From the NCBI GenBank assembly GCA_005524015.1, contig SULG01000013.1, positions 1 through 56,940 on the forward strand: DNA of 56,940 bases. The letters run 5' to 3'. Source of the stretch: Candidatus Jettenia ecosi (GTDB lineage: Bacteria; Planctomycetota; Brocadiia; Brocadiales; Brocadiaceae). The notes under the pieces are model-generated. The model saw only the letters and a list, made by a program, of their open reading frames with translations. It did no database searches and had not been told where the DNA came from. The number at the start of each line of letters is the position of its first letter. The first letter of the stretch is position 1. Below are positions 8,520 through 21,660 of the stretch, in pieces. The position numbers and the translations under genes are program-made.

Positions 8520-11174
8520 ATGGAAATGATGTCTGATAAGATTGAGCACGCTATCGAACATGCAAAACATTTAATGCCTGACCAAGGCCCACTCCCGTTC
8601 TTCGTTCACCACAATACCATTCACCACTTTGAAACATACGATTTCTTCGAAGGCGTTAAACAGGCGGGGCGTACTTATGGCGCCAAAGCGTTTATGTCCG
8701 AAGAAGAGTTTCTCCTGGCGTTTGAACGGGGACGTATTACGGCAGACGTTCTTCAAAAGAAGATCAAAGAATATATCGAACATCATAAGCTTGCTATTCA
8801 ACCGGACCTTCTGTTTAATCTCATGACGGAGAAGCCTCATGTTCGCCCGGCGCCGGATGCGAGAATTCTGCAGTTTGTAAATAACACTGCGTATCAACGC
8901 CCGGGTTATTACAAAGAGGCGATTCAAATCATCCACAACCGGGACATCGACGAGTTGATACAGCCGGTTCTCTTTAGGTTTTTATCATCCTATTTCGACT
9001 TCGGCCTGGCCTATTGGCCCATGCCGAACCGGGAGAAGGGGATGTGGCAGTGCTTTTGTGAAATTTACTCGAAAAGCAGTTTCTTCAGCACAAAATTTCT
9101 CAAGACCCTGAAACGAATCGTTACCGGGATGAAAAGGTACCGGTACGACGAGGCTATCGTACTTCTGTTTCAACGTTTGGCTATCCCCGAGAATCACATG
9201 GAAGACTATATGTTCCGCACCCTGTATCGCTGTAAAGGGTGGACAGGAACCATTAAATCTCTGGAAAAAATGCCGGAATGGATTCCGAGCCAGGATATCA
9301 AGGCAGTTTTTAAAGAGGCCATCCCCGTTATTCTCATCCTCGAACTTGCGGCTATCGAATCCATATGCGACCTACGAGACTTGAAGATTCCGGTCTGTAA
9401 ATCTGAACCCTTGTATAATCCCTATTTTATTGCCTCTGTCGTGAGTGCTTTAGGTATCAAAAACGATGCCGAATTTCCCCAAGAGTTTACCCAATTTACC
9501 GAAGAAAATCGTCAGGAGATTTGGCAGCGCGCTTACGAGGATACCCTCTACAATCAATTCCTCTCGGCATATCGGCAGTGCGCTATCGAGGAAAAGCCGA
9601 AATACGAGCTTCCGAGTTATCAAGTCTTTTGCTGCATCGACGATCGTGAGGAATCCTTCCGTCGCCATCTGGAACAAATCGACCCGGGAGCCGAAACACT
9701 GGGAGCGGCGGGGCATTTTGCCCTTGATATGAGATTTAAGGGCGCACCGGAGAAACATTACCGCAAGATGTGTCCTCATCCTATGGTGACGCCATCAGTG
9801 CAAGTCTACGAAGAGGCAGTGAAACCCGAAGATGCGATGCCCAAAAAACTGCAGCTCTATGGTGAAATACAGTGGGCGGTTACGCAAGCATCCAAGACCC
9901 TTTTCGGAAGCTTTGCCCACACGATTTTCAGCGGTATTTTGAATCTCTTCCCGTATACCCTGGATGTTCTTTCGCCGAAGTACAGTTCCAAGCTGAGACG
10001 CTCTTTGGCAGCCCACGAACCTAAGACACGATTGGTTTACAGGAAAGAAAACCAGGAGAATGAAAAAGGGTGGGATCTGCAAGGCCGGATCGCCCGCGCC
10101 ACGGCGATACTCAAAGGCAGTGGGTTATCAGACAACTTTTCTTCCTATATGTTCTTCCTGGGCCACGGATCGAGTAGTCTCAATAATCCTCACGAAGCCG
10201 CCCATGATTGTGGAGCGTGCGCAGGGGGGCGAGGCGCGCCTAACGGGCGTCTCTTTGCAACCATTTGCAATGAACCTGAAGTCCGCGCAGGGCTGGCAGA
10301 AAATGGTATAATTATCCCTGATTCAACTCTGTTCATCGGCGGATATCACAATACCTGCAGTGATGAGGTAATTCTTTTCGACCTTCCTGACCCCATTGAG
10401 CCGCGCCTGCAAAAGTATATCGACACCATTCGCCGTGCGGCGGCGCTGGATGCTAAAGAACGCTGCAGACGCTTTGATGAGGTCAAGACAGACCAGTCAG
10501 AAAAGGCATTCGCCGATTATGCCCGTGGCCGTGCAATGGATCTTACCCAGCCGAGACCTGAATACGGCCACTGCACCAATGCAATTGCCATCGTAGGTCC
10601 GAGGTATCTAACGCGAAACCTTTTTTTAGACAGACGCGCGTTTTTGGTTTCCTATAATTATAATGTGGATCCAGAAGGGAAGTTCCTGAGAGCTGTCCTC
10701 GGTGCAGTTGGACCGGTATGTGCGGGGATTAGCCTTGAATACTATTTCAGCTTTATTGACAACGAGCATTACGGCTGCGGTACTAAATTGCCTCACAACG
10801 TTACCTCCCTGTTGGGTGTGATGAACGGCTACACCAGCGATCTGCAATTGGGATTGCCATGGCAAATGGTCGAGGTCCACGAACCCACCCGATTGATTCT
10901 GCTCGTTTGCTGTAAGGTCGGGACGATGGAAACTATCCTCGGCGAGGCCTTCGGATATACCAACCAGCCCGGACACTTTCAGTGTTTGGTAAAGCACAAT
11001 TGGATTACCCTCGCGGTTCATGATCAGGATCAGGAAAAACTCTTTTTGTGGAAAGGCGGGGTAGGGGGCCGGTTTGTGCCATTCGAAGACATGGTAGATG
11101 TGCCCGAATACAAGGGCAGCGATCCGCGATTTTTCCTCGAACAAGATCATCTTTTGTTTGGTAAAATTACCTAG
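8520..11174 (+). CDS. dabA: DabA, inorganic carbon uptake subunit (DUF2309)
   Basis: An 884-residue member of the DabA family (formerly DUF2309), a peripheral beta-carbonic-anhydrase-like protein that with membrane partner DabB drives energy-coupled CO2-to-bicarbonate accumulation. The zinc and catalytic residues characteristic of the family can be placed: C372 and D374 in FCCIDDREE, H549 in FLGHGS, and C564 in AHDCGACAGG. The H-to-C spacing of 15 is the same as in the Halothiobacillus protein. dabB follows 9 bases after the stop. GC content is clearly higher than in the genes on either side, suggesting acquisition. The first ATG is used; ATGs at codons 3 and 4 are alternatives because no strong ribosome site is visible. 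It is probably functional: no lesion is seen. Confidence 0.92.
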   Translation: MEMMSDKIEHAIEHAKHLMPDQGPLPFFVHHNTIHHFETYDFFEGVKQAGRTYGAKAFMSEEEFLLAFERGRITADVLQKKIKEYIEHHKLAIQPDLLFNLMTEKPHVRPAPDARILQFVNNTAYQRPGYYKEAIQIIHNRDIDELIQPVLFRFLSSYFDFGLAYWPMPNREKGMWQCFCEIYSKSSFFSTKFLKTLKRIVTGMKRYRYDEAIVLLFQRLAIPENHMEDYMFRTLYRCKGWTGTIKSLEKMPEWIPSQDIKAVFKEAIPVILILELAAIESICDLRDLKIPVCKSEPLYNPYFIASVVSALGIKNDAEFPQEFTQFTEENRQEIWQRAYEDTLYNQFLSAYRQCAIEEKPKYELPSYQVFCCIDDREESFRRHLEQIDPGAETLGAAGHFALDMRFKGAPEKHYRKMCPHPMVTPSVQVYEEAVKPEDAMPKKLQLYGEIQWAVTQASKTLFGSFAHTIFSGILNLFPYTLDVLSPKYSSKLRRSLAAHEPKTRLVYRKENQENEKGWDLQGRIARATAILKGSGLSDNFSSYMFFLGHGSSSLNNPHEAAHDCGACAGGRGAPNGRLFATICNEPEVRAGLAENGIIIPDSTLFIGGYHNTCSDEVILFDLPDPIEPRLQKYIDTIRRAAALDAKERCRRFDEVKTDQSEKAFADYARGRAMDLTQPRPEYGHCTNAIAIVGPRYLTRNLFLDRRAFLVSYNYNVDPEGKFLRAVLGAVGPVCAGISLEYYFSFIDNEHYGCGTKLPHNVTSLLGVMNGYTSDLQLGLPWQMVEVHEPTRLILLVCCKVGTMETILGEAFGYTNQPGHFQCLVKHNWITLAVHDQDQEKLFLWKGGVGGRFVPFEDMVDVPEYKGSDPRFFLEQDHLLFGKIT

Positions 11175-11183
11175 GAGTATACG

Positions 11184-13181
11184 GTGGAAAACTCTTTAAT
11201 TATCTATCTTGTGCATTATTTCATACTGTTCCCGATTGCCAAGATATTTTTTGTAAACATCCAGTATTTTACCAGTAAGCAAGAACGTGAAGAGTACATG
11301 GTTCGTAAACTGGTCCGATGGGGAAACGTCAGTGATTTTATTCACGTTGCAATTGCCTTGTATTTCCTTGGATTTCGTGAGATTACCGTGCAGGTCGAAT
11401 CTTTTTGCTTTCTTGGCTGGCCATTCATTGTGCATTGGAACGTTCTTACGTTTACCTTTTTGGCCTTCACGACAATAATCATTGCGATCATCGGCCACTT
11501 TTCTCTCTTCTATCTTCACCGGGACGCGTATTATCATAAATTCTTTTCCCTTTATTTTATCTTTCATTTATCCATGAAGCTTATCATTCTCAGTTCCGGT
11601 TCTACCTTTTTCTTCATGGGTTGGGAACTATTGGGCTTTTCTTCAGTGCTTCTTATCGCTTTTTATGAGCATCGTCTTAATCCGCTCAAGAATGCTATGC
11701 GGGTATTGTTTATTTACGAGTTCGGAGACGTCTTTATGTGTGCCCTGATTGTGCTGTTGCTCTTCTTCCACACCGAAGACATGACCACGATGGCATCGGT
11801 TCTGGAGAAACATGGCTGCGAGTGGGCGATGGTCTTATTGATTATCGCATGCTTCTTCAAATCGGGTATTTTCCCATGGATCTGGCTGCCGCGGGCAATG
11901 GAAGGACCCACACCATCGAGTGCGGTTTTCTATGGTTCGCTATCAACCCACATCCCCATTTTTCTTCTCCTGCGCTTCTGGCCTAAGAAGTGGTCACTTC
12001 CGGCGTATTGGCCTGAAGTATGGTCGATTTCACATCCGGCAAATGCCATTGCCGTTGCGATTGCCATTTGCGTGTTTTCTGCCTTCATTACAACCCATAT
12101 GAGCCGGCAGGTTTCCGATGCCAAGAATGCCATTGCGTATGCCACCGTAACGCAGTTAGCCATTATTTATATCGAGATATTTCTCGGATTCCGTACCCTT
12201 GCCCTGATTCATGTGGTGTCGCACGGAATCTATCGTACTTTTGAGTTCTTGCGAACGCCGTCCTTACTTCATCTCTACCATACTATGGAGACGCGGCGCC
12301 CCAGAATGACAAGCACCGGACGTCATCTCAAAGCTATCTTTCCCGCGGGATTAAGAAATTGGCTTTACTCACTCACGATCAATGAGTTTGGTTTTTTCTC
12401 CCGCTCATTCGACTTTATTGATCAGTTTCTCGGCCTGAAATTCCTGCGGTATGATAAGAAAGCGGCGCGCCGCTTTGCCATCATGGTTGCTTCGGTATGG
12501 GTAGTCTTTAGCATCGTAATTTTCCTTCTCAATAGGAATTTTTTCAACGTAAAACTTATTGGTGACGGCGGCGGGAATACCTTTACGGCTTTCATTATCA
12601 ACTGGAAATATTTCAACATCAAAGATGAGATATTACTGGCTCTGGCGGTGGGTTTCTGCGTACTAACCTTCTATAATATCCGAAAAGTGGGCATGTTTTT
12701 CGTAACCCTCTCTTGCTCAGCGGCCACGGTAGGAATCGAACACACACTGCTATTGGTAAAGCATATAGACGCATCAAATCAGCTTTACTGGCTCTCTGTA
12801 GTTGTCTTTGCCATTGTCTTTGCGGGACTTGCCTTCCTCTCAGTGTATACCTTCTCAAATGGAAACGAGAATCATCAGAACTATACCGCGAAGCTCTCCC
12901 GTTCTCCCCTGATGAATTTACTGTTGTTTGCCCTCGGTCTTGCTATTGTTGGAGTACCGGGTCTCGGCATTGTCTTGGCCTGGGAATATCTCATCCACTA
13001 TACTGCACAGGTTGCTCCTTATATGGTCGTAAAGGGATTCTTTATCATTAAATTGGACACACTGCTAGTGTTCCTGTTTTACTTCAGCAACTTCCTCGGC
13101 TTCCCCGAACATAAGGCGCAGGTACTGCATCATTACAAGCTCGATACCCTGCATCTCCGATGGGTACAGAAGCATACTTAA
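11184..13181 (+). CDS. dabB: DabB, NuoL/MrpA-like membrane subunit of the carbon uptake complex
   Basis: A 665-residue multi-pass protein of the proton-conducting NuoL/ND5 superfamily, the expected membrane partner of DabA and the likely cation pathway. It has the typical motif set: FMGWELLGFSSVLLIAFYE in the conserved Glu helix, CFFKSGIFPWIWLPRAMEGPTPSSA in the Lys-containing discontinuous helix, and a long hydrophobic C-terminal half. GTG 11184 is chosen because AGGAG lies 6 bases upstream. Gene order is A then B, the reverse of the Halothiobacillus dab operons. It is longer than many DabB proteins because of the C-terminal extension after about residue 480. Confidence 0.88.
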   Translation: MENSLIIYLVHYFILFPIAKIFFVNIQYFTSKQEREEYMVRKLVRWGNVSDFIHVAIALYFLGFREITVQVESFCFLGWPFIVHWNVLTFTFLAFTTIIIAIIGHFSLFYLHRDAYYHKFFSLYFIFHLSMKLIILSSGSTFFFMGWELLGFSSVLLIAFYEHRLNPLKNAMRVLFIYEFGDVFMCALIVLLLFFHTEDMTTMASVLEKHGCEWAMVLLIIACFFKSGIFPWIWLPRAMEGPTPSSAVFYGSLSTHIPIFLLLRFWPKKWSLPAYWPEVWSISHPANAIAVAIAICVFSAFITTHMSRQVSDAKNAIAYATVTQLAIIYIEIFLGFRTLALIHVVSHGIYRTFEFLRTPSLLHLYHTMETRRPRMTSTGRHLKAIFPAGLRNWLYSLTINEFGFFSRSFDFIDQFLGLKFLRYDKKAARRFAIMVASVWVVFSIVIFLLNRNFFNVKLIGDGGGNTFTAFIINWKYFNIKDEILLALAVGFCVLTFYNIRKVGMFFVTLSCSAATVGIEHTLLLVKHIDASNQLYWLSVVVFAIVFAGLAFLSVYTFSNGNENHQNYTAKLSRSPLMNLLLFALGLAIVGVPGLGIVLAWEYLIHYTAQVAPYMVVKGFFIIKLDTLLVFLFYFSNFLGFPEHKAQVLHHYKLDTLHLRWVQKHT

Positions 13182-13187
13182 TCAAAA

Positions 13188-13717
13188 ATGGAAGAGAAGG
13201 TTGCAGGAACCGGTGCGCCGGAGGAGGGTGAGATGGAAAGAGCAGATATAAAGAAGAAAGAAAAATATGTAAGATCTGACGAGACAACGTTGAGGAAGAT
13301 ACTGAGTCCTTTACAATACAAAGTAACGCAAAAGAACGGCACGGAACCGTCCTTCAAGAATGAATACTGGGACAATAAGAAGGAGGGTATATACGTCGAT
13401 ATCGTATCCGGAGAGCCACTTTTTAGCTCACTCGATAAATACAATTCGGGTACCGGAGGCCAAGCTTTATCAAACCCCTTGAGCCTGCTCATATTGTGGA
13501 AAAGAATGACTGGCTCTTATTCTCAAAGCGAACTGAAGTAAGAAGCAAGTATGGCGATTCCCATTTGGGCCATGTATTTCCTGATGGTCAGAAACCCACG
13601 GGACTCCGCTCTTGTATTAACTCAGCAGCGCTACGGTTTATTCCCAAAGAAGATATTGAACAAGAGGGCTATGGACAGTATCGCAGTCTGTTTGAGGGCA
13701 ATTCCGGAGATAGATAA
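13188..13717 (+). pseudogene. msrB: Peptide-methionine (R)-S-oxide reductase, broken by a one-base deletion
   Basis: MsrB reduces methionine-R-sulfoxide in proteins. The first part (13188 to about 13458) ends with [10 protein letters not shown]. The next residues of the family, W-P-S-F-x-K-P-L-E-P-A-H, appear if one T is restored in the GGAGGCC at about 13456-13462. The rest ([36 protein letters not shown]) is in the shifted frame with the catalytic Cys in [10 protein letters not shown]. The Cys often found before GWPSF is Thr here. It sits 6 bases after dabB and looks co-transcribed. A sequencing error would explain the lesion equally well; if so, the gene is intact at about 176 residues. 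Confidence 0.8.
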
Positions 13718-14043: not shown

Positions 14044-16068
14044 ATGGCTGGGCACTTCTTTATCATATCAATAATCCTGTATATTGTTGGCGCTTTATTT
14101 GCCTTATGTTTTTATACATGGCAAAAGGCCGGGAATTTTATTTCGCTTGTGTTTGCTGCCATTGCTGCCTCCTTCAGTATTGCAACAGCCATAACTATGC
14201 TATCTCATGGTTCCCGTATCCATCTTGATTTTCAGTTGTTGCATCCTATTATTACCTATGATTTTTTGCTGGATCCGCTTTCCTCTTTTTTTGTCCTTGC
14301 CATATCGGTTGTTAGTTTTATAGCCTCTCTTTATTCCCTGGGATATACCAGGTTGTACGTTAATAAACGTGATACCCGGTTCCTTGGGTTTACCTATAAT
14401 CTCTTTCTCCTGTCGATGCTTCTGGTTGTTACAGCAAATAATGCATTCGTATTTATGATTGTGTGGGAGCTCATGGCGCTGGTCTCATTCTTCCTGGTTA
14501 TTTTTGAGCATGAAAATCCGGCAGCAAGAAAGGCAGGTTTTGTTTACATTGTAATGGCTCATATCGGATCAGGATTACTCGCCGTAGCCTTTTTTATCAT
14601 GCTTTCCTATGCAGGGTCGTTCGGTTTTGATGATTTTAGAAATGTTGCTTCGCAGGTGCCTGCCACCTATAAAAATATCGTATTCTTTTTGATACTTATT
14701 GGTTTCGGAATAAAAGCGGGTATTTTCCCATTGCATCTTTGGCTCCCTATGGCACACCCTGCCGCCCCAAGTAATGTCTCAATGGTTATGTCAGGGGTTA
14801 TGATTAAGACGGCTGTTTATGGTTTTGTGCGGTTCTATTTTGAATTTCTCACTCCTTGCCCACCCTGGTGGGGGGGTATCATTCTCATTGTAGGCGCCTC
14901 TTCAGCTATTCTGGGAATACTGTATGCTCTTATGGAACGAGACATCAAGACGCTGCTTGCATACAGCAGTGTGGAAAATATGGGCATTATTCTTATAGGA
15001 ATCGGTTTGGCTATGATTTTCAAATCATACGGCTTCGTTTCTTTATCATCCCTTGCAATGATTGCCGGCCTGTACCATTTGATTAATCACGCAGTATTTA
15101 AATGCCTGCTTTTTGGCTGTGCCGGAAATATTTATTATTCAACTCATACAAGAAATATTGAGGAGTTAGGTGGCTTGATAAAACGATTACGTGTTACCGC
15201 CCCGGTATTCCTAGTAGGCGCTTTATCTATTTCAGCTCTACCGCCTTTAAACGGGTTTATGAGTGAGTGGCTTATATTTCAGTCGCTTTTAAACGGGTTT
15301 AACATTCCATCAGTACTTATTAAGATTGAAACCATGATTTGTGGCGCTGTTGTTGCCCTGACGGGGGCGCTTGTTGCTACCTGTTTTATCAAGGCATTTG
15401 GGGTTTCCTTTCTTGCTCTGCCCCGCTCTGATCATGCGCAAAAAGCGAAAGAAGTGCCGGTTGTTATGTATGTCAGCATGGGATTCCTGGCAATGCTTTG
15501 TGTGTGTATGGGTATTTTCCCTGCTAAGATTATGATGATAATTAATCGTGTTAACACGCATCTTCTTGGTACAAATATTATGCCTGCTATTACATCCTAT
15601 GATTGGTTGCAAACGAAGTCAATTCATACGAATTTTACCGGTTTATCTCCGAAAAGTACTACTGTTTTAGGCATAATACTTTTAGTAGTTACCTTTGCTA
15701 TATTGACAATAATAAGGCCTGGGTTTGCCAGAAAGTCATATGAAACCTGGACATGTGGTATAACTCCTGGGACAAGGCTGGAATATACTGCTACGGCCTT
15801 TACAAGGCCTTTCAAGACTATTTTTAGTAGCTTATACAGGCCAAAAGTAGAAGTGAGTTCTGAGTATTCTGTTCCTCATTACTTTGTGAAGTCTGTAACT
15901 TACCTTGGTGAAATAACGCCAATATTTGAAAAATATTTATATACACCGATTTCGAATTTTGTGCTGAACAGTTCCGAAAGAGTAAGATGGGTGCATACGG
16001 GGAATATTCATCTGTATCTTGCTTATATCTTTGTGACTTTACTGATTTTAATTCTGTTTTTTCAATAA
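14044..16068 (+). CDS. hyfB: Hydrogenase-4 component B-like ion-pumping subunit
   Basis: A 674-residue multi-pass protein of the HyfB/HycC branch of the NuoL/M/N superfamily. MIVWELMALVSFFLVIFEHE carries the key Glu, and GFGIKAGIFPLHLWLPMAHPAAPSNVSMVMSG the key Lys and discontinuous helix. In group 4 hydrogenases this subunit is thought to move H+ or Na+ across the membrane, coupled to hydrogen turnover. It is first in the operon; hyfC starts 6 bases after its stop. The cytoplasmic C-terminal region (about 560-640) and last helix are as in HycC. Confidence 0.88.
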   Translation: MAGHFFIISIILYIVGALFALCFYTWQKAGNFISLVFAAIAASFSIATAITMLSHGSRIHLDFQLLHPIITYDFLLDPLSSFFVLAISVVSFIASLYSLGYTRLYVNKRDTRFLGFTYNLFLLSMLLVVTANNAFVFMIVWELMALVSFFLVIFEHENPAARKAGFVYIVMAHIGSGLLAVAFFIMLSYAGSFGFDDFRNVASQVPATYKNIVFFLILIGFGIKAGIFPLHLWLPMAHPAAPSNVSMVMSGVMIKTAVYGFVRFYFEFLTPCPPWWGGIILIVGASSAILGILYALMERDIKTLLAYSSVENMGIILIGIGLAMIFKSYGFVSLSSLAMIAGLYHLINHAVFKCLLFGCAGNIYYSTHTRNIEELGGLIKRLRVTAPVFLVGALSISALPPLNGFMSEWLIFQSLLNGFNIPSVLIKIETMICGAVVALTGALVATCFIKAFGVSFLALPRSDHAQKAKEVPVVMYVSMGFLAMLCVCMGIFPAKIMMIINRVNTHLLGTNIMPAITSYDWLQTKSIHTNFTGLSPKSTTVLGIILLVVTFAILTIIRPGFARKSYETWTCGITPGTRLEYTATAFTRPFKTIFSSLYRPKVEVSSEYSVPHYFVKSVTYLGEITPIFEKYLYTPISNFVLNSSERVRWVHTGNIHLYLAYIFVTLLILILFFQ

Positions 16069-16074
16069 CCGGAT

Positions 16075-17025
16075 ATGAGTTTAGCTTCCAATATAATACT
16101 TCCCATGTTACAGATTGTCGTCATCGCTGGATTAGCACCTCTGGTAAAAGGATTTATCAATAAAATAGAGGCTCGTCTGCAATGCAGAAGAGGGCCGAGT
16201 ATCTTTCAGCTTTACTACAATCTTGTGAAGTTACTCCAGAAAGATGCTGTAGTTTCAGAGACTGCATCGTGGATTTTCAGGGCAACCCCCTATGTAACAT
16301 TTGTTTCGATATTGATTATAACGTTGCTTGTTCCTGTCCTTTCATCTCATGTGCCGGTAAATTTTGCTGGTGATGTAATCCTTATTATTTATCTTTTTGC
16401 ACTCGGCAGATTCTTCCTGGTCTTGTCTTCTCTTGATACAGGAAGCGCATTTGGTGGTATGGGTGGAAGCCGCGAAATGATGGTATCTGCTATGGCGGAG
16501 CCAGCCATGATGCTTTCAATCTTTACTGTTTCTTTAGCGGCAGGTTCTACAAACTTAGGCAATATTACAAGTACTATGCTTAATACGAGTATAATCCTGC
16601 TGAATCCAGCCCTCTTTCTCGCTTTTGCCGCCCTTGCTATTGTCATTATCGCAGAAACTGGCAGAATTCCTATTGATAATCCGTATACACATCTGGAACT
16701 GACTATGATTCATGAGGGTATGATTCTTGAGTTTTCCGGACGTTATTTCGCTTTAATAGAATGGGCGTCTTGTATGAAGTTGTTGCTCTTGTTAACTATT
16801 TTGGTTAATACCTTTTTACCCTGGGGAGTAGCTCCAGGCTTAACTTTTTCGGGCTTAATCCTTTCTTTTGCGGTGTATCTTGTTAAAATCGGATTCTTTG
16901 CTATTTTAATTGTTATTTTAGAGATGTCGTTTGCCAAGATTCGGCTATTCCGGATACCAAATTTGTTGGGAACAGCGTTTGTTTTATCTCTTTTAGCCAT
17001 TATCTCACACTATATGGTAAGTTGA
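16075..17025 (+). CDS. hyfC: Hydrogenase-4 component C-like membrane anchor (NuoH family)
   Basis: 316 residues, about eight membrane segments, NuoH/HycD family. Typical loops are visible: KGFINKIEARLQCRRGPSIFQLYYNLVKLLQKD after the first helix, TGRIPIDNPYTHLELTMIHEG in the conserved acidic loop, and FAKIRLFRIPNLLG near the end. It anchors the large and small hydrogenase subunits and lines the route to the membrane arm. Its stop overlaps the extreme start region of hyfE, so translation is likely coupled. Confidence 0.9.
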   Translation: MSLASNIILPMLQIVVIAGLAPLVKGFINKIEARLQCRRGPSIFQLYYNLVKLLQKDAVVSETASWIFRATPYVTFVSILIITLLVPVLSSHVPVNFAGDVILIIYLFALGRFFLVLSSLDTGSAFGGMGGSREMMVSAMAEPAMMLSIFTVSLAAGSTNLGNITSTMLNTSIILLNPALFLAFAALAIVIIAETGRIPIDNPYTHLELTMIHEGMILEFSGRYFALIEWASCMKLLLLLTILVNTFLPWGVAPGLTFSGLILSFAVYLVKIGFFAILIVILEMSFAKIRLFRIPNLLGTAFVLSLLAIISHYMVS

Positions 17026-17030
17026 TTATT

Positions 17031-17696
17031 ATGGCACATCAAATTGTCATAAACTCTAAAACTATTGATATTCTTGCAATTTTAATGCTTATGTCAACGA
17101 TTATGCTTGTTGGTATGAGTCGTTTGAAGAATTGTATCTGGGCATATGCATTTCGCTCTTTTATTTTGGCATGGGTCAGTGGTCTTATCGCATATTTTTC
17201 AGGAATTCATCACATTTATATTACTACAGGAATCTCATTAGTACTCAAGGTGATTATTATTCCTGGCTTCCTTTTTTATATCATTAATAAAGTTAAAATT
17301 AAAAATGAGGTTGAGTCTTTTATTAGCTATACGTTATCACTGTTAATTTCCTGTGGCATTATTCTTATTGCCTATTACTCCACCCAGTCGATTCTGAAAT
17401 TTGAAAATGTCTTTATGAGACATTGCCTGCCTGTTTCGCTTGCCATTACGCTTGTAGGGTTTTTTGTCATGATTACCCGAAAGAAGGCTATTACGCAAAT
17501 ACTTGGGCTTCTTGCTATGGAGGACGGGCTTTTTTTTGCCGCACTATCTACTTCTTATGGCATGCCGCTCATCGTGGAACTCGGTATATTTTTTGATATC
17601 CTGGTGGGTGTTATTATCATGGGAATATACGTGTACAGAATCAAAGAAACGTTTGATACTATTGATACGGATTTCCTAAGGGAGCTCAGGGAATAA
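17031..17696 (+). CDS. hyfE: Hydrogenase-4 component E-like membrane protein
   Basis: About 221 residues, strongly hydrophobic, with the NuoK-like arrangement of HyfE. GISLVLKVIIIPGFLFYIINK and the acidic helix MPLIVELGIFFDILVGVIIMGIYVYRIKETFDTID are recognisable. ATG 17031 is used; a TTG at 17022 inside the hyfC stop region is the alternative. The stop and the next start share one base (TAATG at 17694-17698), a clear translational-coupling arrangement. Confidence 0.85.
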   Translation: MAHQIVINSKTIDILAILMLMSTIMLVGMSRLKNCIWAYAFRSFILAWVSGLIAYFSGIHHIYITTGISLVLKVIIIPGFLFYIINKVKIKNEVESFISYTLSLLISCGIILIAYYSTQSILKFENVFMRHCLPVSLAITLVGFFVMITRKKAITQILGLLAMEDGLFFAALSTSYGMPLIVELGIFFDILVGVIIMGIYVYRIKETFDTIDTDFLRELRE

Positions 17697-19171
17697 TGGA
17701 AATTTTAGGGCTATTACTGGTACCGATAATAACTGCCGGTATATGCGTGTTCATTACAAAGCATAGCATATCAAAATATGTGAGTATTGCCGGTAGTTTT
17801 ATCACACTCATATACAATCTCATACTGAATTGCGCTATTTATAGTAATCAAACATTGGAAGGATTCCACGGTTTCTTCTATCTTGATTCTTTAAGTATTC
17901 TTAGTACCCAGATTGTTACTCTTGTTGGTTTTGCTGCTGCTTTATACTCAGCTGGTTACATGGAAGCAGAGCTTCGTGAGGGTGAGTTTCCTGAAAAGAG
18001 ATTACGGTGGTATTACTTCCTTTTTCATATGTTTATCTTTACCATGTTATTAGTGTGTGTAACTAATAATTTGGGAATTATGTGGGTAGCAATTGAAGCC
18101 ACGACGCTTTCTACTACCTTTTTAGTAGGTTTTTACAATAAAAAATCTCATCAAGAGGCAGCCTGGAAATATATTATCATTTGTACGGTAGGAATTACCC
18201 TGGCATTGTTTGGTGTTATATTGACTTTTCATTCTGCAAAAGGTGCTCTTGGTGAGATTGGTTATGCGCTAAACTGGTCAAATTTACTAAAGGTTGCAGA
18301 TGGATTCGAGCCTCATCTCATGAAACTAGCCTTCATTTTTATATTAGTTGGATATGGTACTAAGGCAGGTCTGGCCCCTATGCATACCTGGTTACCGGAT
18401 GCACATAGTCAGGCGCCTTCGCCGATTAGTGCTTTATTTTCAGGTGTTTTACTCAATTGTTCGATGTATGGTATTATACGCTATCACATACTTACCTCTA
18501 AGTGTGTTGGACCTGCTTACTCTGGTACACTTCTCATGGTATTTGGCCTTATTTCTGTTGTTGTGTCAATACCTTTTATTATTATACAAAAGGATTATAA
18601 GCGTTTACTTGCTTTTAGCAGCATAGAGCATATAGGTATTATTGCACTTGGTTTTGGCTTCGGAGGTATGTACGGTGTCTATGGTGCAGAGTTGCATGCC
18701 TTTAACCATGCAATAGTAAAATCTCTTTTATTTTTCTGTGCCGGTAATTTATTCTTAAAATATAAGACAAGGGATATGGGAAATATTATGGGGGCTATGA
18801 AAACTATTCCTGTTACCAGTGTTATGTTGGTTATCGGGGTCTTTGCTATTACAGGCATACCTCCATTTAATATCTTTACGAGTGAGTTTATGGTCCTGGC
18901 AGATGGCTTTTCAAGTGGAAATTTATTATCAATAGTGTTCAGCGCAATACTTTTAGTAAGTATTATTCTTATTTTCATTGGCTTTATCTATAATATGTTT
19001 AAGATGATTTTCGGTGTACCTGCGGTAACCGCTAAGCAAGGCGAGGCAAATAAATTTACTGTTGCGGCAATGTCATTTTTGCTGTTTTTTATATTGGTAG
19101 TAAGCCTGTATATACCGCCTCTTTTGAGTAAAATACTTCGTAATATATATGATATTGTAAGGAATGTGTAA
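17696..19171 (+). CDS. hyfF: Hydrogenase-4 component F-like ion-pumping subunit
   Basis: A 491-residue antiporter-like subunit, second NuoL/M/N-type protein of the complex. It has MWVAIEATTLSTTFLVGFYNK (key Glu) and YGTKAGLAPMHTWLPDAHSQAPSPISALFSG (key Lys and discontinuous helix). Two such subunits (HyfB and HyfF) plus HyfE imply a membrane arm larger than that of formate hydrogenlyase-1 (Hyc), which has only one. HyfD is not present. It starts on the last base of the hyfE stop, and its own stop shares a base with the hyfG start. Confidence 0.9.
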   Translation: MEILGLLLVPIITAGICVFITKHSISKYVSIAGSFITLIYNLILNCAIYSNQTLEGFHGFFYLDSLSILSTQIVTLVGFAAALYSAGYMEAELREGEFPEKRLRWYYFLFHMFIFTMLLVCVTNNLGIMWVAIEATTLSTTFLVGFYNKKSHQEAAWKYIIICTVGITLALFGVILTFHSAKGALGEIGYALNWSNLLKVADGFEPHLMKLAFIFILVGYGTKAGLAPMHTWLPDAHSQAPSPISALFSGVLLNCSMYGIIRYHILTSKCVGPAYSGTLLMVFGLISVVVSIPFIIIQKDYKRLLAFSSIEHIGIIALGFGFGGMYGVYGAELHAFNHAIVKSLLFFCAGNLFLKYKTRDMGNIMGAMKTIPVTSVMLVIGVFAITGIPPFNIFTSEFMVLADGFSSGNLLSIVFSAILLVSIILIFIGFIYNMFKMIFGVPAVTAKQGEANKFTVAAMSFLLFFILVVSLYIPPLLSKILRNIYDIVRNV

Positions 19172-20763
19172 TGGGTACCAGCAGGCAAGATTATCTCGAT
19201 ACGTTAACGAGCCGATTCTATGGTACTGTTACCATTACAAAAAGTTTTTTGGAAAATGAAATCTATATTTCCACGAGTAAAGAAAAGCTCATAGATATAT
19301 GCAGTTATATCAACAGCACATTCCAGGCATCTCTTTCAGCCATGATTTGCAACGATGAGAGAAGTCTGAACAAATATTTTAAAATTTACTATGTTTTCTC
19401 TTTACCGGAAGAGGACACATTTTTAATTGTTAACATCCCTGTTAGTGAGCAAGAACCTGTATTTCCATCAATTACTCCGAAAATTCCTGCAGCTCATTGG
19501 TACGAGCGCGAGATTAAGGACATGTTCGGGCTTGAGCCTGTAGGCCATCCAGACCCCTATACGCTGGTATTACATGGCAACTTCCCCGATAATACGTATC
19601 CTTTACGAAAAGATTTTGATGTCCAAACACGCCTGCCCCATCTTGAGTCTAAGCTGCCATTTAAAAGAGTAGAGGGGGAAGGTGTCTTTGAAATACCGGT
19701 AGGCCCTATTCATGCCGGAATTATTGAACCGGGACATTTTCGGTTTAGCGCTGTGGGTGATAGTATCCTGTATTTAGATGCAAAGCTCTTTTATACACAT
19801 AAGGGCACGGAGAAAATTTTTGAGACTATGCCGTATACAAAGGCCCTGTTTCTTGCGGAGAGAATTTGTGGTGTTTGTGCAGCATCTCACGCAACGGGTT
19901 ATTGTCAGGCTATTGAGAAGGTAGCAGGGGTTGGGATACCACCGCGGGCCAAGTTTATCAGGACTATACTTCTGGAATTGGAAAGGCTTTATAACCATAT
20001 AGGGGATATTGGTAATATCTGTGCTGGCGCAGCTTTTCATCTGGGTAGCGCACACGGGTTCAGGATTCGTGAGTATTTACAGCTGCTCAATGAAACGATA
20101 ACGGGTAATCGGTACCTCAGAGGGATGATTACTATTGGTGGGGTAAGATTCGATATAAATAATGATCTAAAGAAATATATTGTAACCTTGCTTACCGATA
20201 TTAAGAAAGATTTCAAAGAGCTTACCGATATCATGTTTGCATCTTCTTCTCTTATGGACAGGCTTGAGACCACAGGAAGGCTTCCTGCTGAAACTGCCAG
20301 AGGACTTGGAGTTGTTGGAGTTGCTGCGCGGGCTTCCGGAATAGGCAGAGATGCTCGGGTTAATCATCCTTATGCTGCGTATCGTGAGGTTGATTTTGAT
20401 GTCCCCGTTTTTTATAACGATGGGGATGTGTATGCGAGGGTAAGAGTAAGAGTTGATGAGGTTTATCAATCTATATACATTATTGAACAATGTTTTGATA
20501 AAATGTCAGAAGGTTCTATAAAAACTTCCGTTAAGGAGCTTCCGCCATACAGACAAGCTTTAAGTTATGTGGAATCGCCTCGAGGTGAAAATATATATTG
20601 GATTATGACAGCCCCAGACAATAGGTTATTCAGATATAAAGTGCGTTCGCCCTCTTTTTGTAACTGGCCGGCAATTCCTTATACCATTCCGGGGAACATT
20701 GTTCCGGATTTCCCTTTAATTAATAAAAGTTTTGAATTATGTTATTCTTGTACTGACTTGTAA
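19171..20763 (+). CDS. hyfG: Group 4 [NiFe] hydrogenase large subunit (HyfG/HycE type)
   Basis: A 530-residue fusion of a NuoC-like 30-kDa domain (residues 1 to about 155, with HWYEREIKDMFGLEPVGHPD) and the NuoD-like catalytic domain. Both Ni-binding Cys pairs are present: C233-x2-C236 in ERICGVCAASHATGYC, and C524-x2-C527 in ELCYSCTDL at the extreme C-terminus. So it is a true [NiFe] hydrogenase subunit and not a complex I relative. The protein stops three residues after the last nickel Cys (counting that Cys as first), so it lacks the C-terminal tail that maturation proteases remove. In HycE the motif reads DPCYSCTDR. No hyp maturation genes are in the window. Confidence 0.93.
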   Translation: MGTSRQDYLDTLTSRFYGTVTITKSFLENEIYISTSKEKLIDICSYINSTFQASLSAMICNDERSLNKYFKIYYVFSLPEEDTFLIVNIPVSEQEPVFPSITPKIPAAHWYEREIKDMFGLEPVGHPDPYTLVLHGNFPDNTYPLRKDFDVQTRLPHLESKLPFKRVEGEGVFEIPVGPIHAGIIEPGHFRFSAVGDSILYLDAKLFYTHKGTEKIFETMPYTKALFLAERICGVCAASHATGYCQAIEKVAGVGIPPRAKFIRTILLELERLYNHIGDIGNICAGAAFHLGSAHGFRIREYLQLLNETITGNRYLRGMITIGGVRFDINNDLKKYIVTLLTDIKKDFKELTDIMFASSSLMDRLETTGRLPAETARGLGVVGVAARASGIGRDARVNHPYAAYREVDFDVPVFYNDGDVYARVRVRVDEVYQSIYIIEQCFDKMSEGSIKTSVKELPPYRQALSYVESPRGENIYWIMTAPDNRLFRYKVRSPSFCNWPAIPYTIPGNIVPDFPLINKSFELCYSCTDL

Positions 20764-20868
20764 ACGAGACTGTTAATCTACGAGATTTTGTATGTTATGA
20801 TAAAATACTTTAAAATATCGTGATTTTATTCGGAATTTTCGCTTTTAGTGTATTTCTTGGACTAAAAA

Positions 20869-21660
20869 ATGTTTACAAAATTTCAGAAAAGTTTCCAGAC
20901 AGGCGTAGTTACTTCTTCCTATCCATACGAAAAAGAGCCAGCTCCTTTTCGTTTTCGGGGAAGGATTGAAATAGATAATGAGCGGTGCAAGCAATGCAAT
21001 ATCTGCGTAGATGTTTGTCCTACAGGCGCATATACCTGGATAGAACAAGATGGTAAACGGTATCTGCAGCTCTCCCATGCAAAATGTGTTTTTTGTGGAA
21101 TTTGTGAAGAGATGTGCTCCTATAAGGCTATTGCGATTACCAACAGTTTTGAGTTAGCGGCGACCCATAAGGAAGATCTTCTCACGAAGGCAGGCTTTGA
21201 TACAAAAGAATCGGTGGAAGCGCTTGGGAAAAAACTTAATGAAAAGATCTTTTCTGTATTCAAACGCTCATTGCATGTCAGGGAAGTGGATGCAGGCTCA
21301 TGTAACGGATGCGAATGGGAGTTTGTTGCATTATATAACAGTCCAGTTCATGATTTACAGAGATTTGGCATCGATGTAGTTGCTTCTCCGCGCCATGCTG
21401 ATTGTTTACTGGTAACAGGCCCCCCTACGAGAAATCTGGAAACTGCTCTCATAAAAACGTATCATGCTACGCCAGAACCAAAGATGGTTATTGCCTTGGG
21501 CGCCTGTGCGGGCAGTGGGGGTATTTTTAGTAATTGTTATGCCACAAAAAATGGAATTGATAACGTTATCCCTGTAGATATTTATATTCCTGGTTGTCCA
21601 CCCAGACCACAGGCAATTATCTATGGATTCTTGCTTGCATTGGATAGGGTACGTAAATAG
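20869..21660 (+). CDS. Fused 8Fe ferredoxin and [NiFe] hydrogenase small subunit (HyfH+HyfI)
   Basis: 263 residues combining two proteins that are usually separate. Residues about 30-95 are a two-cluster ferredoxin (C40, C43, C46, C50 and C73, C76, C79, C83) like HycF/HyfH. Residues about 130-263 are a NuoB/HycG-type small subunit with the proximal-cluster ligands C145, C148 (GSCNGCEWE), C213 (GACAGSGG) and C243 (PGCPPRP). It would carry electrons from the Ni-Fe site to a soluble partner. It follows hyfG after 105 bases with no clear ribosome site. I give no symbol because it corresponds to two. Whether the donor/acceptor is ferredoxin or another protein is not shown by the sequence. Confidence 0.9.
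   Translation: MFTKFQKSFQTGVVTSSYPYEKEPAPFRFRGRIEIDNERCKQCNICVDVCPTGAYTWIEQDGKRYLQLSHAKCVFCGICEEMCSYKAIAITNSFELAATHKEDLLTKAGFDTKESVEALGKKLNEKIFSVFKRSLHVREVDAGSCNGCEWEFVALYNSPVHDLQRFGIDVVASPRHADCLLVTGPPTRNLETALIKTYHATPEPKMVIALGACAGSGGIFSNCYATKNGIDNVIPVDIYIPGCPPRPQAIIYGFLLALDRVRK

Follow-up and report, generated by a model that had tools for sequence, protein, structure and literature searches.

A probable Ehr-like complex with a four-cysteine pocket in Candidatus Jettenia ecosi: a hydrogenase without its cofactor?

Introduction

What would a bacterium do with a nickel-type pocket when genes that make the matching cofactor are missing? The question is raised by a six-gene cluster resembling hydrogenase-4 (Hyf), found at positions 14044-21660 of the window analysed here, that is, the whole 56,940-nucleotide stretch formed by positions 1-56,940 of contig SULG01000013.1 (all cluster coordinates are window positions). 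The contig belongs to the genome of Candidatus Jettenia ecosi J2 (3,864,554 bases, 223 contigs), an anammox bacterium sequenced by 454, which its genome paper credits with two [NiFe] hydrogenases, of groups 3b and 4f, and with a full Wood-Ljungdahl pathway (PMC6828613). NuoD apart, large subunits of hydrogenase type number only two in this genome: a 3b-like one on contig C67 and that of the cluster, so the published 4f enzyme must be the cluster described here. The cluster itself is already known; what is new, to judge from the open papers searched, are its missing maturation genes, its mismatch with such genes across relatives, its ELC motif and its place beside the family of energy-converting hydrogenase-related (Ehr) complexes. 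Searches of the literature on Ehr, on a HydG/HypC-HydE route to [NiFe] and on group 4f gave nothing directly on point apart from the papers cited.

The answer towards which we lean, with modest confidence, is a ferredoxin-linked, ion-translocating, Ehr-like complex whose four-cysteine (Cys4) pocket is preserved for a purpose other than binding the NiFe(CN)2CO cofactor. The gene content, the intact Fe-S and cysteine motifs, the strong conservation and the lack of any link with maturation genes are shown by the data, whereas the electron donor and acceptor, the direction and the occupant of the pocket are inferred. Support for a hydrogenase is weak.

The cluster and its genes

As predicted originally, the six genes follow the order B-C-E-F-G-(H+I), all on the plus strand. 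Subunits were assigned with Pfam and NCBIfam models:

14044..16068, plus strand: HyfB-like antiporter subunit, 674 aa (NCBIfam 'hydrogenase 4 subunit B', E=8e-207, over cut-off)
16075..17025, plus strand: HyfC/NuoH-like membrane subunit, 316 aa (Pfam NADHdh, E=6e-45)
17022..17696, plus strand: HyfE-like membrane subunit, 224 aa (hydrogenase 4 membrane subunit model, E=2e-30, below cut-off)
17696..19171, plus strand: HyfF-like antiporter subunit, 491 aa (hydrogenase 4 subunit F model, E=3e-155, below cut-off)
19171..20763, plus strand: HyfG/HycE-like large subunit (G), 530 aa, with fused 30-kDa and 49-kDa domains
20869..21243, plus strand: H domain of the HI protein, with the two [4Fe-4S] motifs CKQCNICVDVC and CVFCGICEEMC
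21244..21660, plus strand: I domain of the HI protein, a NuoB/HycG-like proximal-cluster subunit fused to H (best Protein Data Bank match 7z0s_G, E=7e-42)

According to the open reading frame (ORF) list of this assembly, all six genes are open and none is frameshifted. They are tightly packed, with overlaps of 1-4 bp at the C/E, E/F and F/G junctions, a gap of 6 bp between B and C, and one of 105 bp between G and HI. The models reveal a Hyf/Mbh-like membrane arm with its antiporter subunits, and the motifs WELMALVSF, KAGIFPLHLWLP and HAVFKCLLFG were found by reading the HyfB-like protein. The HI protein joins a HyfH-like two-[4Fe-4S] ferredoxin domain to a HyfI-like proximal-cluster subunit, with every cluster cysteine in place. 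Neither hyfA, hyfD, hyfJ or formate dehydrogenase nor the genes of an NADH module were found within the cluster. The original description is thus borne out: the operon is a reduced one of the Hyf type, lacks a formate module, and has two antiporter-like subunits (B and F), a ferredoxin-type Fe-S input (the H domain) and both Ni-binding cysteine pairs intact. The search for this gene order in other genomes recovered it in at least 10 related ones, which excludes chance. The idea of an under-described branch is likewise supported, with the reservation that the cluster had already been reported as group 4f in the genome paper (PMC6828613).

The cysteine pocket of the large subunit

Among solved structures, the best relative of G is the formate hydrogenlyase (FHL) subunit HycE (7z0s_E, E=5e-110). 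All four Ni-ligand cysteines are present, in two loops:

19858..19890, plus strand: L1 motif ERICGVCAASH (C233, C236), within the second-longest invariant run of an alignment of 15 Brocadiaceae rows
20728..20760, plus strand: L2 motif SFELCYSCTDL (C524, C527), at the extreme C-terminus, within the longest invariant run of 21 residues

The first loop reads ERICGVCAASH in every Brocadiaceae copy read, and so displays the N-terminal CxxC of group 4 hydrogenases. The second does not follow the hydrogenase pattern: it is ELCxxC instead of DPCxxC, and ELCYSC in all Brocadiaceae copies whose C-terminus was read. Where G has SFELCYSCTDL, HycE and HyfG carry SLDPCYSCTDR. The ORF stops right after CTDL, leaving G without a C-terminal peptide. 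An AlphaFold model of G was set aside, its mean predicted local distance difference test (pLDDT) score being 60 and that of the cysteine region below 50.

Maturation genes in the host

The original prediction had named a genome without hyp genes as an argument against itself, and to a large extent this is what the genome presents: hypF, hypC and hypD are absent, while an intact hypE and a frameshifted hypA remain. HypD had no match in the genome, and HypF only a weak partial one that does not represent a real HypF. In the sister genome G002, the operon runs hypF-hypC-hypD-hypE and continues with the genes of the 3b hydrogenase, then with a protease gene and hypA. The DNA common to the two genomes stops 10 bp before hypE, and unrelated genes stand upstream in place of hypF-hypC-hypD. 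The group 3b operon (L050:6848-14160, on contig C67) carries one frameshift in each of three 3b genes and in hypA; the Hyf-like cluster, from the same 454 assembly, carries none. This is suggestive, but not conclusive, of a strain in which a Hyp-dependent hydrogenase is decaying while the Hyf-like cluster stays intact. Since genes that make the cofactor are missing, the Cys4 pocket is most likely without NiFe(CN)2CO in this organism, and the complex is therefore probably not a hydrogenase.

Maturation routes across relatives

Is this disparity peculiar to one strain? Among 59 relatives, HypD, HypE and HypF are almost always found as a set, and the four-cysteine cluster is found both with and without them. 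A simple rule that no HypD means no hydrogenase had to be abandoned: G011 and other genomes without HypDEF keep canonical large subunits and have HydG together with a HypC-HydE fusion. In several of these genomes the canonical large subunits (DPCISCATH) adjoin the HydG and HypC-HydE genes or lie in the same genome. HydG (TIGR03955) scores over cut-off and carries the radical S-adenosylmethionine (SAM) motif and a C-terminal CxxC-22-C motif; in the fusion, an N-terminal HypC domain is joined to a HydE radical-SAM domain. The fusion occurs in 15 of the 59 genomes, all from the anammox order, and never with HypD. HydG and HypC-HydE loci are L073:204-2872 (G053), L182:4841-9282 (G019), L183, L185, L186, L188 and L191, several of which also have HypA/HypB and a canonical [NiFe] hydrogenase close by. 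No [FeFe] hydrogenase was detected in the 59 genomes by a search that did detect the Thermotoga maritima control. It is possible that HydG and the fusion, in replacement of HypDEF, constitute a second route to the [NiFe] cofactor.

A NiFeSe/group 2-like hydrogenase also lies close to HydG, HypA and HypB (L074:4548-7030 in G019, and L186 in G023); the G019 large subunit ends at ..CTVH, without a C-terminal peptide.

After the fusion was found, all counts were redone with both routes, a maturation route being defined as HypD or the HypC-HydE fusion (HydG alone was searched in part of the genomes only), and limited to genomes with a completeness of 90% or more. Canonical large subunits are accompanied by a route in 29 of 30 such genomes, the sole exception being the J. 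ecosi genome itself, against only 6 of 11 for the cluster described here (Fisher p=0.003, or 0.01 without G014, which has a hypE fragment at a contig end; as the genomes are related, these values overstate independence, and the contrast was also drawn up after the data were seen). The carriers without any route are G000, G014, G017, G026 and G028. In G017 (99% complete), G026 (92%) and G028 (96%), there is neither HypD, HypE or HypF over cut-off nor a HypC-HydE fusion. In Ca. Brocadia sapporoensis, no large subunit besides that of the cluster was found. Across relatives, the cluster thus comes and goes independently of maturation genes.

These counts bear on a rival view in line with the genome paper: the cluster would encode a functional, ferredoxin-dependent and proton-pumping [NiFe] hydrogenase of group 4f, the missing Hyp genes reflecting an assembly gap or a role taken over by another route. 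The four Ni ligands and neighbouring residues are kept as such an enzyme would need, the assignment stands in the genome paper (PMC6828613), and an unexpected second maturation route did turn up in sister genomes. Against these stand the lack of a HypD match here and of any route in G017, G026 and G028, a distribution that ignores maturation genes, ELC in place of DPC, and closest relatives that are not hydrogenases. We consider this view unlikely.

Selection on the pocket

For the large subunit, pairs of genomes in which hosts without Hyp take part give a ratio of non-synonymous to synonymous substitution rates (dN/dS) of 0.067-0.12. The other subunits give similar values, up to 0.18 for the very close pair formed by J. 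ecosi and G002. In the 15 Brocadiaceae rows, 56% of G positions are invariant, and the two cysteine loops form the two longest invariant runs, of 21 and 19 residues. With such low dN/dS and these runs, the pocket is under strong constraint even in hosts where no known cofactor route was found.

The same data weigh on the proposal that the complex is a hydrogenase where Hyp or HypC-HydE/HydG was kept and a decaying remnant where it was lost. Hosts do differ in this respect, some having a maturation route and some not, and the 3b operon of J. ecosi suggests that decay of this kind happens. However, two hosts that both lack maturation genes show an equally low dN/dS (0.068 for G017-G028), and no host departs from the invariant cysteine loops. 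We hold such a split to be quite improbable.

A third proposal overlaps with the Ehr-like complex that we favour and differs in its substrate, which would be neither quinone nor H2: the Cys4 pocket would house a different metal or sulfur centre, for instance a simple metal or polysulfide-handling site. What speaks for it is that conservation peaks in the cysteine loops even though some hosts yielded no cofactor route; the AlphaFold model is too poor around the cysteines for their geometry to lend any help. We regard it as conceivable but rather doubtful.

Relatives and phylogenetic position

The four-cysteine form of the cluster occurs in 18 of the 59 related genomes, nearly all of the same family, at 78-97% identity, a few copies being cut by contig ends. 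The relatives of the cluster include a contig (L024) of the groundwater anammox genome nzgw513, said to hold a group 4 hydrogenase (PMC8862662). Outside this group, the four cysteines are lost in all sampled relatives at 36-52% identity with a readable large subunit: Nitrospirota, Scalindua and other Brocadiales, other Planctomycetota, and Rhizobium and Rhodococcus plasmids. Their large subunits carry RVSGTSS-like and SFNLSYxGxDL-like motifs. These Cys-less relatives are Ehr complexes, as generally defined in PMC6349859, which occur in about half of Nitrospirales genomes, lack the [NiFe] ligands and are of unknown function (PMC12342949). G is 47-52% identical to the Cys-less Nitrospirota Ehr and 36-37% identical to E. 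coli HycE/HyfG (36% for HycE); the loss of Ni-binding cysteines that characterises Ehr has not occurred in it, all four being kept. All ten Brocadiaceae loci that were checked have the H ferredoxin domain; in the Nitrospirota and other Brocadiales loci checked, the last protein has no such domain, and some Planctomycetota keep one Fe-S motif.

The trees tend to place the Brocadiaceae form beside the Cys-less forms rather than HycE/HyfG, as a basal or a nested branch depending on the columns and taxa used. In large-subunit trees with FHL as the root and all columns included, it is the first branch, the Cys-less group receiving a support of 97. When the cysteine columns are left out, the base is close to a polytomy, and the best large-subunit tree has the one-loss placement (Brocadiaceae with FHL) with a support of 73, alternatives not being rejected. 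In a concatenated six-subunit set without long branches, the one-loss placement lies 1.13 log-likelihood units above the free search (approximately unbiased test, p-AU 0.55), and alternative placements are not rejected either (p-AU 0.24 and 0.35). Inclusion of the long-branch Planctomycetota nests the Brocadiaceae form, a result that carries a long-branch warning. A re-gain of the four cysteines inside the Cys-less clade had been suspected from the identities; it was set aside, since the one-loss placement scored best without the cysteine columns, with alternatives not rejected. That the cysteines were retained here and lost once elsewhere is the most economical interpretation; it is not rejected, nor is it proven. 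The complex may tentatively be seen as a surviving intermediate between [NiFe] hydrogenases and Ehr, one that has lost cofactor supply, DPC and C-terminal peptide and whose selected Cys4 pocket holds a different centre; we hold this to be possible, if somewhat less than evenly so.

H2 as product or substrate, as first proposed, is not supported: hypF, hypC and hypD are absent, maturation genes are not tracked, and the nearest relatives are Cys-less Ehr.

Proposed mechanism and its weak points

How might such a complex work? By homology with its relatives on the FHL/Ehr branch, it would be a membrane-bound, ion-translocating redox complex. Electrons would enter from ferredoxin, the presumed donor, via the two [4Fe-4S] clusters of H, and proceed through the proximal cluster of I to the Cys4 pocket in G, whose occupant would not be NiFe(CN)2CO. 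Redox chemistry would be coupled via C to the transport of ions by B and F, the antiporter subunits, with the quinone pool as the favoured terminal partner. As the Wood-Ljungdahl pathway needs low-potential electrons, we propose that the complex may run backwards on ion-motive force and supply that pathway with reduced ferredoxin.

Several observations count against this account. A working [NiFe] site would need the four Ni ligands, the ligands of the proximal cluster, and an Arg (ESPRGE) and a Glu (EPGHFR) at the outer positions, and the complex keeps every one of them. The quinone residues of complex I (NuoD Tyr and His) are not conserved in G, and the quinone assignment is weak for that reason. 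Six of the 11 better genomes with the cluster do have a maturation route, and a further, undiscovered one is conceivable, given that an unexpected route did emerge in sister genomes. Finally, in a 454 assembly some of the frameshifts may be errors.

Anammox genomes are being described as hydrogen-metabolising from such clusters, and these claims will need revising if the cluster is not a hydrogenase. In that case, the complex would offer a way to study a hydrogenase module turning into a non-hydrogenase pump, a step in complex I ancestry, and would be a candidate source of low-potential electrons for anammox carbon fixation. If confirmed, the finding of HydG and HypC-HydE instead of HypDEF beside canonical [NiFe] hydrogenases would mean that the [NiFe] cofactor can be made in two ways.

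Neighbouring genes

Directly upstream of the cluster (window 8520-13181) lie DabA/DabB inorganic carbon transporter genes. They neighbour the cluster at high identity in G002 and G026, and more distant DabA-like genes are near it in G023, G053 and G692. DabAB was rejected as part of the functional unit, not being seen beside the cluster in most relatives. At 13188-13541, a SelR (MsrB) fragment contains the first half of the domain only; the gene is split in two pieces in G002, and it is probably broken here.

Comparison with known systems

The Nitrospirales Ehr (PMC12342949) have the same B-C-E-F-G-I order, the same lack of a C-terminal peptide and the NKSF(N/E)L signature, but they are without the four Ni cysteines and, in the Nitrospirota loci checked, without the H domain, both of which this complex has. 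E. coli hydrogenase-4 and formate hydrogenlyase (Hyf, Hyc) share its subunit types, four cysteines and proximal cluster; unlike them, it has no hyfA, hyfD, hyfJ or formate dehydrogenase, its H and I are fused, ELC stands for DPC, and there is no cleaved C-terminal peptide. The complex I of J. ecosi itself (NuoD on contig C14) has homologous membrane and Q-module subunits, but it is encoded at a separate locus, shows about 29% identity and does not share its quinone residues, and its NADH module has no counterpart in the cluster. As for the published group 4f hydrogenase (PMC6828613), it is evidently the same cluster; the passages concerned make no mention of maturation genes, and hypF, hypC and hypD are absent here.

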